A model generated the notes under the pieces. It saw nothing but the letters and a program-made list of their open reading frames with translations. It was not told the origin of the DNA and made no database searches. A stretch of DNA of 64,000 nucleotides, from contig NZ_SMBP01000005.1 of NCBI RefSeq assembly GCF_004341945.1, forward strand, positions 1 to 64,000. Reading direction: 5' to 3'. The translations under genes were made by a program, and so were the position numbers. Origin of the DNA: Longicatena caecimuris (lineage in GTDB: Bacteria; Bacillota_I; Bacilli_A; Erysipelotrichales; Erysipelotrichaceae). This document shows positions 38,720-45,142 of this stretch, in pieces; the stretch's first letter is position 1, and every line of letters begins with the position of its first letter.

Positions 38720-39172
38720 TTAATTTATTTCATCTTTCTTTTTCTTCATGTCAAAGATTTTATCCTGAATGGCTTTTTCTAGTTCTTCCACCAGAAAATC
38801 AAAATTTTCTTCCTCATGATGATCTACAAACATATCCAGATAAATCCGTTTCGCTTTTTTTTCTTTTTCATCAAATTCCACGCAAGTACCCGAATATGCA
38901 TGCTGAATTGGATAGCCCTCAATGGCCGCATACCCAGTATGCAAGGTTCCACAAATTCCATCCACATCAAATATTGCTGGACTGCGAACAATGGAAATAT
39001 TCTTACATTCTTCTAGGAACTTACGGTATCGTCCATTCTCCTTATGAGCTGCACTCACCAAAATCAATTTCACCTGATTTTTACGTAAATGGCACAAAAA
39101 GCGATGACGAATTTCTTCTTGAAATGCCCCGGCTTCAAACATAGCATCATCTATGTAATAAAACTTCATCAT
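38720..39172 (-). CDS. Hypothetical protein overlapping the ftsZ stop
   Basis: A 150-residue protein starting MMKFYYIDDAMFEAG. It contains LILVSAAH near residue 40, IFDVDG in the middle and a C-terminal lysine-rich tail. Hydrophobic strand plus Ser and the Asp pairs faintly recall HAD-fold proteins, but the motif order does not fit, so I leave it unassigned. Its first ATG overlaps the ftsZ stop as TAATG, and a second ATG follows directly. Translational coupling to ftsZ and a shared terminator suggest a role linked to cell division. Confidence 0.75.
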   Translation of the reverse strand: MMKFYYIDDAMFEAGAFQEEIRHRFLCHLRKNQVKLILVSAAHKENGRYRKFLEECKNISIVRSPAIFDVDGICGTLHTGYAAIEGYPIQHAYSGTCVEFDEKEKKAKRIYLDMFVDHHEEENFDFLVEELEKAIQDKIFDMKKKKDEIN

Positions 39173-40284
39173 TATCTTCTTGTGAAGAAGGAAGGAATCC
39201 CTTCATTGTCATCCTCTTCCGCATCATTCATGCGTGAAGTTGCATATACTTCTGGTTCTGATGCTTTTACACTTTGCTTCGGCGCAGCCTTAGCAGCAGA
39301 ATAGGAGAATGCTTTTTCTAAGACATCTTCTTCATTCTTATCAGCGTCAAAACCTGTAGCAATGACGGTAACAATGATAGAATCTCCTAGTTTTTCATTA
39401 ATCGCAACACCAAAGATAGCATCAATATCATTACCAGCAGCCTCTCGTACTAAAGCCATAGCATCCTCAGCATCAAATAAGGTGATAGATTCTCCACCGG
39501 TAATATTGACAATAGCATTGCGTGCACCAGTAATCTGTGCCTCTAGCAATGGGGATTGAATAGCTTTTTCAGCTGCAGCACGTGCTTTGTCTTCTCCTTC
39601 TGCCATACCAATACCAATTAATGCAGAGCCTTGATTTTCCATAATTGTGCGAACATCCGCAAAGTCCAAATTGATCAATGCCGGTACGGCAATTAAATCC
39701 GTAATCGTCTGCACGCCCTGACGCAATACATTATCAGCAGCCTGGAATGCTTCCGTCAATGGTCTTCGTCCGATGACCTCAATAAGGTTATTGTTAGAAA
39801 CGATAATCAAAGAATCTACGTATTCTTTCATTTCAGCCAAGCCTTCTTCAGCTGCCTTCATACGTTTCTTACCTTCAAAGGTAAATGGTTTGGTTACGAT
39901 ACCTACAGTCAATGCGCCTTCTTCTTTTGCTATCTTCGCAAATAATGGCGCAGCACCAGTACCAGTACCTCCACCTAAACCGGTAGTTATAAAGACCATG
40001 TCACTGCCTTTGATTGCCTCACGAATTTCATTTTCATTTTCCTGTGCAGCTCGTCTTCCCATTTCCGGGTTTGCGCCTGCTCCAAGACCTTTGGTAATCT
40101 CACGTCCAAGCACCAGTTTATTTTCTACAGGAGAAATATTTAATGCCTGTAAATCCGTATTTGCCACATAAAACTCGACCCCTTTAACACCTTCGCTCAC
40201 CATACGGTTCACCGCATTACAGCCGCCACCGCCGATTCCAAACACTTTAATATTTGCTACCTGTTCAAACTGTAAATCACTCAT
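39172..40284 (-). CDS. ftsZ: Cell division protein FtsZ
   Basis: A 370-residue tubulin-like GTPase that forms the Z ring. It has VFGIGGGGCNAVNRM at the N-terminus, the tubulin signature GLGGGTGTGAAP, NNLIEVIGRRPLTEAF and NLDFADVRTIMENQGSA with the T7 catalytic acidic residue. A short acidic linker ends in DDNEGIPSFFTRR, the conserved C-terminal peptide that binds FtsA and SepF. GAGGAATAAAG precedes ATG 40284. It lies 24 bases after ftsA and is coupled to the following unknown gene. Confidence 0.99.
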   Translation of the reverse strand: MSDLQFEQVANIKVFGIGGGGCNAVNRMVSEGVKGVEFYVANTDLQALNISPVENKLVLGREITKGLGAGANPEMGRRAAQENENEIREAIKGSDMVFITTGLGGGTGTGAAPLFAKIAKEEGALTVGIVTKPFTFEGKKRMKAAEEGLAEMKEYVDSLIIVSNNNLIEVIGRRPLTEAFQAADNVLRQGVQTITDLIAVPALINLDFADVRTIMENQGSALIGIGMAEGEDKARAAAEKAIQSPLLEAQITGARNAIVNITGGESITLFDAEDAMALVREAAGNDIDAIFGVAINEKLGDSIIVTVIATGFDADKNEEDVLEKAFSYSAAKAAPKQSVKASEPEVYATSRMNDAEEDDNEGIPSFFTRR

Positions 40285-40308
40285 CTTTATTCCTCGCTCT
40301 CTCTTCTT

Positions 40309-41568
40309 TTATCGATCATTCAACAGAATGCTTTTCAATTTTTTCGTAAATCCGCCTTCTTCATCCTGTGTGGACGTCTTACGGCGTATAGTTTCCACAA
40401 CCTGTTCTACTTCTGCATCAGCACAGCTTGTACGTTGATCATTGCGAATATCTATCTGTTCCTTCCAACTGTAAAATAAGCCTAAGCAAGTTACTAAGGA
40501 ACAATCTCTAGCTCCAATCGTCTGTGGCACATATAGCTGCCAAGGCGCATTTAATTCATCAAACAACGGTTCCACTGCCTGAATCTCACAGCCTTCTCCC
40601 GTGATTAGATAGCGAACATCGCCACTCTCAATAATTGGTGCACAGGCTTCATTAATGCCTTGGATCCATTCATGAATGTATGGCGCAACCAGCTGACATA
40701 CTTGCTTTTCACTCAGCTGTTTCTGTTCTTTGCCTTCGCTCCAAACATAAATAATCGTATCCTTTGCTTCATGTTCTTTTAAACAACAAGTATTTTGTAC
40801 CAAGCGATAACCGACATGTGGCGATAAATGGTTTTCTTCACAAAGCTTTGCTAACCATTTGCCATATCCATCTTCTAATACCTCGCAGTTTACAAGTTTA
40901 CCATGCGTAAATAAAGAAAGTGTAGTATTCTGTCGAGCTAAATCAATTAATATGACATATTTATCAACCGTCTGCTCAAAAACCGCTGCTTCTTGGGCAA
41001 TGGCATAAGAATCCAAACATACATCCAGAATTTCTAAGCCAGCTTTTTCGATACAGCGTGCATAGGAATACACGGTTTCTTTATCCGCGAATAGTAAATC
41101 AACATCCATGATCAACATATCACTTGTTTCATCGATTGGCATTTTTCTTGAAGTGATGCCATTGGTTATGTATTTGATACAGCCGACATTCACCAGTTCT
41201 AATTCGGGATCTGGTTTATAAGTAATCGCTTCATTCAGTCCTTTTTGAATATCACTTAAACGAATACGTTTACTGCTTGCCTGTGGCAATACATGAACAC
41301 GTTTATTATGTCTGGCCACATTGACGCTAGGTAACGATACCAATGCGCGTTCAATATGATAACCAAGCGATTCCTCCGCCTGTTTCACAGCTTTTATGAT
41401 TCCATTTACAACATTTTGTTCATCTATAATTTTCTTTTTTTCGATTCCAGTAATCCCTGCTCTTTCAACCCGCAGAATATTAAATCTGGTATCATAAAAT
41501 TCTCCAACGATCAGACGAATTTCATGATCGGCAATTTCTACGGAGGCATAGATTTCCTTTCGATCCAT
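40309..41568 (-). CDS. ftsA: Cell division protein FtsA, divergent
   Basis: A 419-residue FtsA/actin-like protein, identified by overall plan, position before ftsZ and the C-terminal KKLKSILLNDR helix that would bind the membrane. Nucleotide loops are unusual: the N-terminal VEIADHEIRLIVG replaces the usual D-x-GT loop, and IDLARQNTTLSLF (about residue 205) replaces the D-x-GGGTT loop; TGEGCEI stands where TGGGA is expected. ATP binding may be altered. The frame extends to 41619, but GGGGG eight bases before ATG 41568 supports that start. Its partner ftsZ follows directly. Confidence 0.88.
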   Translation of the reverse strand: MDRKEIYASVEIADHEIRLIVGEFYDTRFNILRVERAGITGIEKKKIIDEQNVVNGIIKAVKQAEESLGYHIERALVSLPSVNVARHNKRVHVLPQASSKRIRLSDIQKGLNEAITYKPDPELELVNVGCIKYITNGITSRKMPIDETSDMLIMDVDLLFADKETVYSYARCIEKAGLEILDVCLDSYAIAQEAAVFEQTVDKYVILIDLARQNTTLSLFTHGKLVNCEVLEDGYGKWLAKLCEENHLSPHVGYRLVQNTCCLKEHEAKDTIIYVWSEGKEQKQLSEKQVCQLVAPYIHEWIQGINEACAPIIESGDVRYLITGEGCEIQAVEPLFDELNAPWQLYVPQTIGARDCSLVTCLGLFYSWKEQIDIRNDQRTSCADAEVEQVVETIRRKTSTQDEEGGFTKKLKSILLNDR

Positions 41569-41697
41569 AAGGTTTACCCCCTTACACACGTTTTCACTTA
41601 TACTCATATATAATATCATAAAAATGGTGGATAAAAAACATTTTACAGGAATTTGTCATATTTTTTTCAGATTTAGGAATTTCCGTGCTCCATCGTT

Positions 41698-41730
41698 TTA
41701 AAAAAGAGAGAATTTTAGAAATTCTCTCCA
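41698..41730 (-). terminator. Terminator overlapping the stop of the Ig/cadherin-like gene
   Basis: GAGAGAATTT and AAATTCTCTC arms on the minus strand are followed by TTTTTT. The stop codon (41717-41715) lies in the loop, so the last codons form part of the hairpin. Confidence 0.88.
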
Positions 41731-43229
41731 TCTTCTTGCTGCATTTTAACCAAGCTTTCGTGCTCTATTTCAGCACTTTTTGATAATGGTTTTCCCTTCA
41801 CATCAATCTTATTGAAATGCTTTGGTTTACGTTTCTTGATACATATGATAAGAATAGCCAAGAAAAGGATAGCACTCAATGCACAAAGACCATACACGAT
41901 CAGTTTCAGCTGCTTCGTTTCTTCCTCATGTGCTTTCAGTAATTTTTCATATGCATTCTGCGTAATTGCTGCACCACCGGCATACCGCTGTAAGGTATTC
42001 CCTGTTTTCTCATATTGATAATACACCTTATCACCGGCATCATTCATTACATAAAGCAATGCGTAATCAGCAAATGCCTTATCTTGATATGTCCAACCAG
42101 GAAGTTCTTTTCCATCGACCTTTACTGTCGTAAACACCATACCAGTACGTTTTTGCAACGCTTTGGGCACATCGATGATCGCAATATTTTCTCCAAGTAA
42201 GCCCATCGGGCGATAAATGGATGTTACTTCTTTCTTTTCCGTATCATAAAAATAAAAGTCTTTTTTATCATCGTTTTCTAAATACAACAATGTCATATGT
42301 AAACTTTCATTTGTCCAAGCTGGTACTACTTTTCCATCAATGGTAAGCTTTGTTTCCTCAAATAATTTCTTAGACAATTTCGCAGCTGAATGTGAAACGC
42401 CAAGTTTTTTCCCTTGATAATTTACAAAGACTAGTGGTTTTTCATCCACATGTACCTTTATCGTATAGGTTGTTGATGTCCCATTTTCTGCAGTACATAT
42501 CACTTGAATCGTATTATTACCGGGTTTCAACTTCTTTTTTCCGATTCCACTCAGTGATGCCTTGCTGTTATTTGCTGCTGCACTGACCTTTAGGGTATCT
42601 ACACTACCAGGCAGATCAACCTTATATGAAGTTGTTCCAGCTTGAAATGCCGGGGATAATTTGCCTTCACTGACACTTAAAGACTTCAAGAAACTATCCT
42701 TATTTTTCTTTTCTTCTTCTTTTGGTTTCTCTGTTTTATTACTAGGCTCATTCTTTGGTGTATCATTATTGGAAGGAGCATTGTTATAATCATCATTATT
42801 GTTCTGTGAAGTATCATTATTTCCTGAATTACTTGAATTATTATTATTGTTGTTTGATGGTTTGCTGCGTTCTTTTACCACCACGGTACAAGAAGAAGAC
42901 AATGACTGATCCTTTTCCGTATTAAAATCGGCAATCGTTCCTGAAGCATAGACGCTAAGACTGCCAGCACTAGTTCCTTTTACGGTATAGGATCGAGAAT
43001 TATTTTCAAACCAATCAGAATCATTTGCAGCACCACTCACAGCCACCATACCTGCTCCACCAGAAACACTGACCGTAAAGGTCACAGTATCTCCAACATA
43101 AATTGTCGAACTACTACAAGATACGGATAAGCCTGCTGCAGCAATATGTTTTTTAGGCAGATTCAGTACTGTTACTGCTAAAATAGCAACACTGATACCT
43201 GCCAGAAATTTTGTTATTTTCTTTCTCAT
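41715..43229 (-). CDS. Secreted Ig/cadherin-like protein with C-terminal membrane anchor
   Basis: A 504-residue surface protein. A signal peptide (MRKKITKFLAGISVAILAVT) is followed by an Ig-like or cohesin-like beta domain (about 30-120, VGDTVTFTVSVSGGAG), an Asn/Ser-rich low-complexity linker (about 125-175), a cadherin-like beta-sandwich domain (about 180-265, SFLKSLSVSEGKLSP to TYTIKVHV), an unknown domain, a helix near 440 (YGLCALSAILFLAILIIC) and a basic cytosolic tail. The frame extends to 43241, but GGAGGT just before ATG 43229 gives the start. It is co-transcribed with the dockerin-bearing glucosaminidase immediately upstream (11-base gap). Confidence 0.83.
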   Translation of the reverse strand: MRKKITKFLAGISVAILAVTVLNLPKKHIAAAGLSVSCSSSTIYVGDTVTFTVSVSGGAGMVAVSGAANDSDWFENNSRSYTVKGTSAGSLSVYASGTIADFNTEKDQSLSSSCTVVVKERSKPSNNNNNNSSNSGNNDTSQNNNDDYNNAPSNNDTPKNEPSNKTEKPKEEEKKNKDSFLKSLSVSEGKLSPAFQAGTTSYKVDLPGSVDTLKVSAAANNSKASLSGIGKKKLKPGNNTIQVICTAENGTSTTYTIKVHVDEKPLVFVNYQGKKLGVSHSAAKLSKKLFEETKLTIDGKVVPAWTNESLHMTLLYLENDDKKDFYFYDTEKKEVTSIYRPMGLLGENIAIIDVPKALQKRTGMVFTTVKVDGKELPGWTYQDKAFADYALLYVMNDAGDKVYYQYEKTGNTLQRYAGGAAITQNAYEKLLKAHEEETKQLKLIVYGLCALSAILFLAILIICIKKRKPKHFNKIDVKGKPLSKSAEIEHESLVKMQQEDGENF

Positions 43230-43240
43230 CTTTACCTCCA

Positions 43241-45142
43241 CTATTTCCCCATGATCCTGTTCTTAACGACTACATAATCAGCTGGTGAAATTTTACCATC
43301 TTGATTTGCATCCGCTGCTTTTAAAGGCGTTCCTTTTAATTTTGTCACACCCATGATATGATTTTTGATTTTCACATAGTCAGCAGGAGATAATTTCCCA
43401 TCACCATTTACATCTCCGGGTAAAACTTTTTCATCTGGTTTATCCGGTGTGTCAGGCACCTTATCATGGTTAGCATCTTGATTGCCTTCATAAATGACCA
43501 TCATCGAATCTTTCACCTTTATGTATCCATAATTGTATGTGTAATCATATAGACCATTGGAATCATTATTCTTAGCACTGCGATCTGCTTTTAAGATGCA
43601 GTCTGTACGTATTTTATACCATGTACCTTGACTGTTTTTTACCGTATCTAACACAACAAATGGGAATTGATGAATGACCTTGCTATTGCTATTTCCGTTT
43701 TGATAATATTCTTTGCTGGAGGTTTTAGCATCCTTATATATACTGATTGGTTTTACACCGGTGTCAATCACAAGGGTGTACTTATCACTGTCCTTTTTAC
43801 CAGAAAGATCTTCCAAAAAATAACCTTGTGCTGCCGCTTTTTCCCCCCAGTAAGGATCACTAGCATATTGCACATTCATACCGCTTTGTTTATCCCCAAG
43901 ATGAGGTCCATAATATCGCCAATCATATGGATCTGTATAGCCAAGCGACACCCAGTTTTTCGCAAAATCATTGATACATGCCGCAACTGAGGCGAATGTA
44001 TTCGCTGAAGTTCCCGGACTGGTATCCACAGCATTTAATCCAAAGATGTTGTTTTTTTCCTGTGCGATAGAGCTATTGCCCCAAGCACTTTCATTCACTG
44101 CCAAACCAAAAGCCAAAGCTGCATTTGTACCATATTGTTGTGCATTGATAAAATCTACGCCACGATTTCGCAGCTTTGATTTCGTATTTGTCGTACCTTC
44201 TAACAAACGTTTATTTAAATGATCTGCTGTAAAACTAGATACCGTACGCATCGAAAGAAACTGATAGTAATTATAATAAGGTGATTCCTTATTAACCGCA
44301 CGGCTGTATACATCCTTTTGATAATCATTGATCATGGTTTCAAAAGCAGTATAAAAATAATGACCGTCATAGCTGAAATATTTTGTATTCTCTTTCAAAT
44401 ACGCTGGCGCATTTCCAACGCGCTGAGATGAACTGTAATATGGTGTAAATATCTGATGATAGAGTTTATTCTTTGTCACATAATAATAACTGACATTCAC
44501 CTTTGCTGTATATTCCTGAATGGTAACATATTTCGCATCCACCAAACCGGTAACTCCGGCCATACGAAACTTGACCTTTCCATCCACCGTGCCAAGATAG
44601 GCTGCATCTACCGCATAAACGGCACTCGTATACCCACTGATATTGGTATCGACTTCCTTATATGGTGTCGTCATTCCACCATCCAACACTTTAAATTTTA
44701 CGATAGATGGTTTGGTAGTGCTGCGTAATACATTCTTACTATACACAGAAACATCCACATCACTATTTGCTGAACGCATCATGCTGCGTGTTAGCTGTAA
44801 CATATTTGCTGTCTTTACCGCATCCTCAATGGTATCATAATGGCCAACCTCTGCACTAGCTCCATCTTTGGTTTCCATTTCCACATCAAACGTTACCTCT
44901 TCATCTGTATCTTCCGGCAAGGTAATGTCCTCTTTGACACCCTGTGGATTCGCTTTTACATAAGTAATTTTTCCATCTTCATCCATCTTTAAAAACATAC
45001 CTGTTTGATCGCCATAAGAAGAACCCTTCCTAGTTTCTGAATGTTCTTCTTCCGCAAACAGCTTTTTTTCTATATTTGGCAAAACGTTAACTGCCAGTAA
45101 ACTTACCCCAAGAAAGATTGTAAATACCTTTGTTTTTCTCAT
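43241..45142 (-). CDS. Secreted glucosaminidase with C-terminal dockerin
   Basis: A 633-residue exported protein. The signal peptide MRKTKVFTIFLGVSLLAVNV is followed by a domain of unknown type, then an N-acetylglucosaminidase (GH73-like) core in which VNESAWGNSSIAQEKNN, near residue 350, holds the catalytic Glu. An SH3-like segment follows. The last 60 residues are a type I dockerin: two Ca2+-binding repeats, GDVNGDGKLSPADYVKIKN and ANQDGKISPADYVVVKN, joined by a KLKGTPL linker. It should cut peptidoglycan glycan strands and bind a cohesin. It is first in a two-gene operon with a TTGCAT/TATAAT promoter. Confidence 0.9.
   Translation of the reverse strand: MRKTKVFTIFLGVSLLAVNVLPNIEKKLFAEEEHSETRKGSSYGDQTGMFLKMDEDGKITYVKANPQGVKEDITLPEDTDEEVTFDVEMETKDGASAEVGHYDTIEDAVKTANMLQLTRSMMRSANSDVDVSVYSKNVLRSTTKPSIVKFKVLDGGMTTPYKEVDTNISGYTSAVYAVDAAYLGTVDGKVKFRMAGVTGLVDAKYVTIQEYTAKVNVSYYYVTKNKLYHQIFTPYYSSSQRVGNAPAYLKENTKYFSYDGHYFYTAFETMINDYQKDVYSRAVNKESPYYNYYQFLSMRTVSSFTADHLNKRLLEGTTNTKSKLRNRGVDFINAQQYGTNAALAFGLAVNESAWGNSSIAQEKNNIFGLNAVDTSPGTSANTFASVAACINDFAKNWVSLGYTDPYDWRYYGPHLGDKQSGMNVQYASDPYWGEKAAAQGYFLEDLSGKKDSDKYTLVIDTGVKPISIYKDAKTSSKEYYQNGNSNSKVIHQFPFVVLDTVKNSQGTWYKIRTDCILKADRSAKNNDSNGLYDYTYNYGYIKVKDSMMVIYEGNQDANHDKVPDTPDKPDEKVLPGDVNGDGKLSPADYVKIKNHIMGVTKLKGTPLKAADANQDGKISPADYVVVKNRIMGK

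Follow-up and report, generated by a model that had tools for sequence, protein, structure and literature searches.

A type I dockerin on a wall hydrolase and an adjacent Ig-sized domain of a membrane protein as its putative receptor in Longicatena caecimuris

A cohesin is a nine-stranded jelly-roll of about 140 residues, and in a cellulosome a scaffoldin with several cohesins recruits many dockerin-bearing enzymes, as exemplified by the type I system of Clostridium thermocellum (2ccl). The nearest known use of such pairs outside cellulosomes is in the glycosidases of Clostridium perfringens and the mucinolysomes of Limousia which, according to PMC12997984, combine mucin-glycan cargo with cohesins that are detected by Pfam. 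Here we describe two adjacent genes in a stretch of 64,000 nucleotides (nt) from Longicatena caecimuris (contig NZ_SMBP01000005.1, positions 1 to 64,000; hereinafter, the window) that encode a secreted glucosaminidase with a C-terminal dockerin and a membrane-anchored, receptor-like protein starting with an immunoglobulin (Ig)-like domain, hereinafter the N-domain. The two proteins very likely form a genuine dockerin-receptor couple, with a socket that would be an Ig-sized relative of cohesins, not a cohesin as Pfam defines it.

Like the cellulosomal type I pairs, this locus includes a type I dockerin with repeat-symmetric recognition positions; unlike them, it involves no scaffoldin, a single dockerin over the cut-off, a wall hydrolase as the cargo and a receptor domain of only about 85-92 residues. 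The non-cellulosomal use is shared with the C. perfringens and Limousia systems (PMC12997984), whereas the adjacent gene couple, the membrane-anchored receptor and the wall-enzyme cargo set the present locus apart. The same source indicates that the original prediction, according to which a cohesin-dockerin pair would be unusual outside cellulosomes, overstated the rarity of such pairs. The literature searched, including passages of PMC12997984, PMC5817068 and PMC6030884, with subscription papers outside its scope, contains no description of this pair. On the best reading, the system is of a known kind, cohesin-dockerin, in a form with a reduced, Ig-sized socket on a membrane receptor encoded next to the wall-hydrolase gene. 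The features of the locus are as follows.

43241-45142, minus strand: secreted glucosaminidase with a C-terminal type I dockerin, 633 amino acids (gene call, Pfam, phmmer)
43832-44143, minus strand: Glucosaminidase catalytic domain, residues 334-437 (PF01832, 55.4 bits, cut-off 30.2)
43253-43420, minus strand: type I dockerin, residues 575-630, two repeats with SPADYV in each (PF00404, Dockerin_1, 52.9 bits, cut-off 22.9)
43235-43239, minus strand: GGAGG, resembling a ribosome-binding site, of the receptor gene (from the sequence)
41715-43229, minus strand: membrane-anchored receptor-like protein, 504 amino acids from the ATG (from the sequence)
42864-43139, minus strand: Ig-like N-domain, the proposed dockerin receptor and putative reduced cohesin relative (AlphaFold2 pLDDT 98.0, pTM 0.87; co-variation with the dockerin)
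42450-42689, minus strand: Cadherin-like beta-sandwich domain, single copy, the presumed stalk (PF12733, 44.2 bits, cut-off 24.2)
41982-42443, minus strand: conserved C-terminal extracellular region, CT, about 155 residues (no Pfam family in scans)
41829-41912, minus strand: transmembrane helix followed by a basic tail, residues ~440-467 (hydropathy over 1.6)
41705-41729, minus strand: terminator-like hairpin of 11 pairs with a T run at the end of the gene pair (hairpin scan)

The enzyme has a signal-like N-terminus, and its assignment to the glucosaminidases is based on the PF01832 match above the cut-off together with the conserved glutamate E351 of the NESAWG motif, which corresponds to the glutamate that is E in the structure 7pj3 and Q in 7pj4 (phmmer E-value for 7pj3, 1.1e-22). 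The claim that the protein ends in two Ca2+-binding dockerin repeats is borne out by the PF00404 match above the curated cut-off and by the two calcium-loop repeats, which are near-identical at the recognition positions. This is the only dockerin over the Pfam cut-off in the 2.9-Mb genome of L. caecimuris, and no cohesin in that genome exceeds the Pfam cut-off; these counts do not match a cellulosome with its multi-cohesin scaffoldin and many dockerin enzymes. The same genome encodes a second glucosaminidase (926 amino acids; contig 10, L183:2090-4870) that lacks a dockerin.

The likely start of the neighbouring gene is the ATG at 43229, 11 nt past the enzyme stop; the GTG at 43241 that is listed as the start overlaps that stop. 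The encoded protein consists of a signal-like N-terminus, the Ig-like domain (containing VGDTVTFTVSVSGG), a low-complexity linker, the cadherin-like domain, the CT region, a transmembrane stretch and a basic tail, with no LPxTG motif seen beside the latter two. An exported Ig-like domain at the beginning of this protein had been anticipated, and the signal-like N-terminus and the modelled Ig-like sandwich agree with this expectation. Because a strong terminator-like hairpin lies 3' of the neighbour and the hairpin scan detects none in the 11-nt gap between the genes, the two are predicted to be co-transcribed.

The first line of evidence for the couple is gene adjacency. Of 78 near relatives, 31 encode the neighbour and 62 the enzyme; an order-level survey of 315 genomes identifies 130 with dockerins, 97 with a member of the neighbour family and 77 with Pfam cohesins at E<=0.01 (51 over the cut-off). 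The stretches around the neighbour matches were fetched and annotated with purpose-built profiles, with some short receptor fragments at contig ends not included. Among 68 receptors of the CT type, counting the window and excluding the 11 g72 loci that had been partly selected by their dockerins, every complete one that has an N-domain is immediately preceded by a dockerin gene (60/60, gap -17 to +23 nt), those without an N-domain have none (3/3), and the remaining five are cut by contig ends. Receptors classed as non-CT (32 entries, mostly multi-cadherin proteins, a few of them truncated) have a dockerin directly upstream in 22 of the 31 cases with an N-domain, and the single one devoid of an N-domain is also devoid of a dockerin. 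When the search is extended to the class, 61 of 395 genomes, most of them from another family, encode a member of the receptor family; in this second lineage, 37 of the 40 loci that were picked by the receptor match alone have the dockerin immediately upstream, at a gap of -4 to +30 nt. In L097, L146, L150 and L151, a dockerin gene and the gene for a cohesin-type receptor are divergent and 68-211 nt apart.

The second line of evidence comes from co-variation. Positions 10, 11, 13, 14, 17, 18 and 21 of each dockerin repeat were chosen as recognition positions from the repeat symmetry in the first lineage and applied unchanged to the second; they overlap the known sites of cohesin recognition, positions 10, 11, 17, 18 and 22. 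Across 93 dockerins, agreement at the recognition positions is 0.77-1.00 between the two repeats within a dockerin, compared to 0.12-0.40 between different dockerins, a contrast that is absent from positions 1, 5 and 12 of the calcium loop. Because the recognition positions agree within and differ between dockerins, the dockerins look as if selected to display one specificity twice. For 44 pairs, the N-domain distances correlate with the dockerin distances given the cadherin-like, CT and glucosaminidase domains (partial rank r 0.41, 0/500 permutations, which treat loci as exchangeable and control for relatedness solely via the linked domains), compared to partial r of 0.01-0.08 between the N-domain and the other domains. 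When only Ig-type pairs are considered, with near-identical pairs thinned from 46 to 39 and the signal peptide also controlled, the partial r is 0.50 (0/300); the corresponding values for the N-domain are -0.06 with the cadherin-like domain, -0.03 with CT and 0.28 with the signal peptide, and the cadherin-like domain correlates with the dockerin at 0.20 (11/300). Splitting the first-lineage dockerins attributes the signal to the recognition positions (0.45, 0/500) as opposed to the other positions (0.01, 222/500), with CT against the recognition positions at 0.21 (9/500). The 37 pairs of the unseen second lineage yield 0.79 (0/1000) for the recognition positions and 0.06 (219/1000) for the others; here, CT and the cadherin-like domain correlate with the recognition positions at 0.13 and -0.17, respectively. 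The Ig-type receptors of the second lineage (L229, L230, L254 and L259) pair with DY[VI]xIKN dockerins, as in the window (SPADYVKIKNHIMG), and most of the cohesin-like receptors of that lineage pair with DLLxxQK dockerins.

Tests within genomes point in the same direction. In nine genomes with two pairs each, the nearest dockerin from a foreign genus correctly identifies the N-domain in 15 of 18 tests, compared to 11/18 for CT and 10/18 for the cadherin-like domain; two of the three misses belong to genome G096, in which both N-domains are identical. When 48 pairs are considered, the nearest foreign dockerin has a partner that lies at the median quantile of 0.02 of the N-domain distance (CT: 0.27). 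In genome G055, a GH25-like dockerin protein (named by eye) encoded on another contig carries GVDYV..RN.LD, the motif of the paired dockerin of that genome; because this gene and the pair are located on different contigs, the match is not due to linkage. A similar GH25-like protein, also named by eye, in G050, a genome of another species in the same genus, is encoded about 5 kb from the pair on the same contig and has DYIRIKNYIM like its own pair, and in G080, a second dockerin protein adjoining the pair repeats the local motif.

These data bear on the possibility that the dockerin and the N-domain merely travel together as a DNA cassette spanning the gene junction, with the Ig-like domain binding some other target, e.g., a glycan or peptidoglycan. 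The end of the dockerin and the start of the N-domain are indeed close in the DNA, so that recombination could shift both. We nevertheless consider this explanation improbable, given that the signal peptide encoded between the two does not co-vary with the dockerin (-0.13 in the Ig-only set, for a short and noisy segment), that, within the dockerin, co-variation with the N-domain is confined to the recognition positions, and that the GH25-like dockerin of G055, encoded on a different contig, fits the receptor class of its own genome.

Still less probable is the scenario in which the dockerin binds a cohesin encoded elsewhere in the genome, the neighbour being an unrelated membrane protein. A weak candidate is a GH31 protein of 2275 amino acids, in which a stretch at residues ~1260-1320 appears cohesin-like by eye; the protein also shows a weak match to the cohesin set (9.6 bits), a weak dockerin-like match (16.1 bits) and a match to the LPXTG anchor below the cut-off, and glycosidases of C. 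perfringens pair via cohesin and dockerin in a like manner (PMC12997984). Set against this candidate, the L. caecimuris genome contains no cohesin over the Pfam cut-off, 25 of the 39 genomes with Ig-type pairs lack any Pfam cohesin at E<=0.01, and the co-variation is with the N-domain of the neighbour itself. The GH31 protein is encoded on contig 15 (L181:3210-10037) and additionally contains FIVAR and F5/8C domains. A metallophosphatase protein of the same genome, which contains a weak cohesin stretch (E 0.024), was rejected as a partner, with no cohesin match at E<=0.1 in the Pfam scan.

A dockerin-receptor pair of the proposed kind has an invariant part across the loci, namely the dockerin and the receptor, and the cargo differs. 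Among ten scanned cargo proteins without a glucosaminidase domain, there are two GH25 proteins, two with the metallo-beta-lactamase fold, one Amidase_2, one with RCC1 repeats and four without an enzyme-naming family. The least probable of the alternatives is that the pair binds for regulation or secretion, the neighbour being an inhibitor or chaperone of the hydrolase instead of a tether: other bacteria are known to use membrane partners to activate or inactivate wall hydrolases, but the unrelated folds of the cargo (glucosaminidase, GH25, Amidase_2, metallo-beta-lactamase, RCC1) favour a generic plug over an enzyme-specific inhibitor. The dockerin-bearing proteins of the metallo-beta-lactamase fold are encoded ahead of the receptor gene at L081:5136-6356 and L085:6521-7801. 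At L170:2909-4797, the glucosaminidase and the dockerin are split over two open frames, perhaps through a frameshift or an assembly error.

The AlphaFold2 model of the 92-residue N-domain of the window is a short Ig-like sandwich with eight strands of at least three residues, and thus differs from the nine-stranded jelly-roll of cohesins, for which the Pfam model length is 139 positions; a comparison with the Pfam cohesin profile PF00963 yields no match at E<=1. A Foldseek search started with the model identifies nothing at E<=0.001, with mostly antibody and receptor Ig folds listed. In a second structural search, the cohesin of the C. perfringens GH33 protein (2vo8), the sole cohesin among the 50 matches listed, ranks 14th in a tie with Ig folds (Z 8.0, rmsd 2.9, alignment over 89 of the 92 residues). 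The notion that the N-domain adopts a literal cohesin fold is therefore not upheld, and the structure was rejected as a proof of cohesin identity: the model is excellent but Ig-type matches dominate, so that the fold alone is not decisive.

Connections to cohesins emerge, however, from the other members of the receptor family. The N-domain of the L095 receptor, which has the multi-cadherin architecture, exceeds the Pfam cohesin cut-off (26.4 vs 24.1 bits), several Pfam cohesin matches of the order-level search lie inside receptor N-domains (e.g., in G302, G306 and G238), and of the 25 receptors scanned in the second lineage, 6 match the Pfam cohesin at E<=0.01 (best, 2.6e-8). Profiles were compared for four sets of N-domains: the Ig-type set (49 sequences including the window; L082, L139, L142 and L100 omitted), C1 (13, from the same CT-type protein), C3 (24, from the second lineage) and C2 (25, containing Pfam cohesins). 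The Ig-type set matches C1 at 95.4% (E 2e-8) and C3 at 96.6%, over the whole domain, and these two sets in turn match C2 at 98.0% and 98.4%, respectively. In the control comparisons, the Ig-type set scores 0.7-8% with the cadherin-like domain, 0.1% with CT and 60.5% over 61 columns with Big_2. A generic Big_2 (PF02368) origin of the N-domain was rejected after a comparison with 22 Big_2 domains (4 of 26 loci were dropped, the match being shifted by a contig end): the N-domain resembles Big_2 in being an Ig-like sandwich, but is closer to the cohesin-like sets that occupy the same slot (95-97% over the whole domain vs 60.5%). Of 35 first-lineage receptors scanned, one matches Pfam Big_2 at E<=0.1. 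We read these comparisons as pointing to the N-domain being a shortened cohesin relative, linked via the intermediates C1 and C3, with common descent with generic Ig domains as the alternative.

Several observations weigh against a dockerin receptor derived from a cohesin. The best solved structural matches of the N-domain are assorted Ig folds, with 2vo8 within the tied band; the direct comparison of the Ig-type set with the cohesin set C2 gives 35-42% (local) and 56-72% (global); and the weak similarity of the Ig-type profile to generic Big_2 domains points the same way. With respect to adjacency, 9 of the 31 non-CT receptors with an N-domain have no same-strand dockerin within 60 nt (four divergent dockerins 68-211 nt away, one on the same strand 1,050 nt upstream and four with none in the stretch), and L227, L228 and L243 of the second lineage lack an upstream dockerin. 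With respect to co-variation, the C1 group alone shows a non-significant correlation between the N-domain and the dockerin (0.24, 52/300, 7 thinned pairs), and in the second lineage, the N-domain correlates with the cadherin-like domain (0.24, 6/1000). Finally, in an AlphaFold model of a read-through chain from the relative L064 (dockerin, gene gap, signal peptide and Ig domain; pTM 0.50), both halves fold but the placement of the dockerin relative to the Ig domain is not confident, so that the model speaks neither for nor against binding. The dockerin half of this model superimposes on 2ccl_B (0.8 A over 59 columns, TMt 0.91), which supports a dockerin fold for the L064 dockerin specifically.

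Taken together, the adjacency, the co-variation of the N-domain with the recognition residues and the Pfam cohesins found in the same slot strongly but indirectly support the part of the original prediction that posits a minimal pair by which a wall hydrolase is kept at the membrane, although not a cohesin in the Pfam sense. A plain Ig-type domain that fails to bind the dockerin had been named as the outcome that would speak against the pair; the model is indeed Ig-like, and the lack of binding is argued against by the indirect evidence. In all likelihood, this is a dedicated dockerin-receptor pair that tethers the hydrolase at the membrane via a reduced, cohesin-related socket, although physical binding, its calcium dependence, the membrane tethering and a role in wall growth or division are all inferred. 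Under the proposed mechanism, the N-terminal Ig-like domain of a type I membrane protein would bind the type I dockerin of the secreted wall hydrolase via the seven recognition positions of each repeat, and the enzyme would be kept just outside the membrane on a stalk formed by the cadherin-like domain and the CT region. The socket would be a shortened cohesin relative located in the slot where other genera retain a recognisable cohesin.

In the window, the pair adjoins an ftsA-like gene and ftsZ (39172-41619), and an open reading frame with the FtsZ motif is also present in seven of the fetched relatives (L064, L065, L066, L106, L110, L114 and L115). This neighbourhood suggests a link of the pair to cell division.

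The broader implication, to which we assign roughly even chances, is that miniature cohesins of Ig size (about 85-92 residues) make up a wide family with several orthogonal specificity classes and that, in two lineages of the class, this family provides a general socket at the membrane for wall enzymes that bear a dockerin; next to ftsA-ftsZ, in the relatives of the window, this socket may keep a wall hydrolase close to the division machinery. The pairing classes yield directly testable predictions of binding. If the proposed pairing is correct, it would show the minimum size that a dockerin receptor may reach, provide a source of many naturally orthogonal plug-and-socket pairs, and extend the dockerin system from machines that digest plant material or mucin to the maintenance of the cell's own wall.

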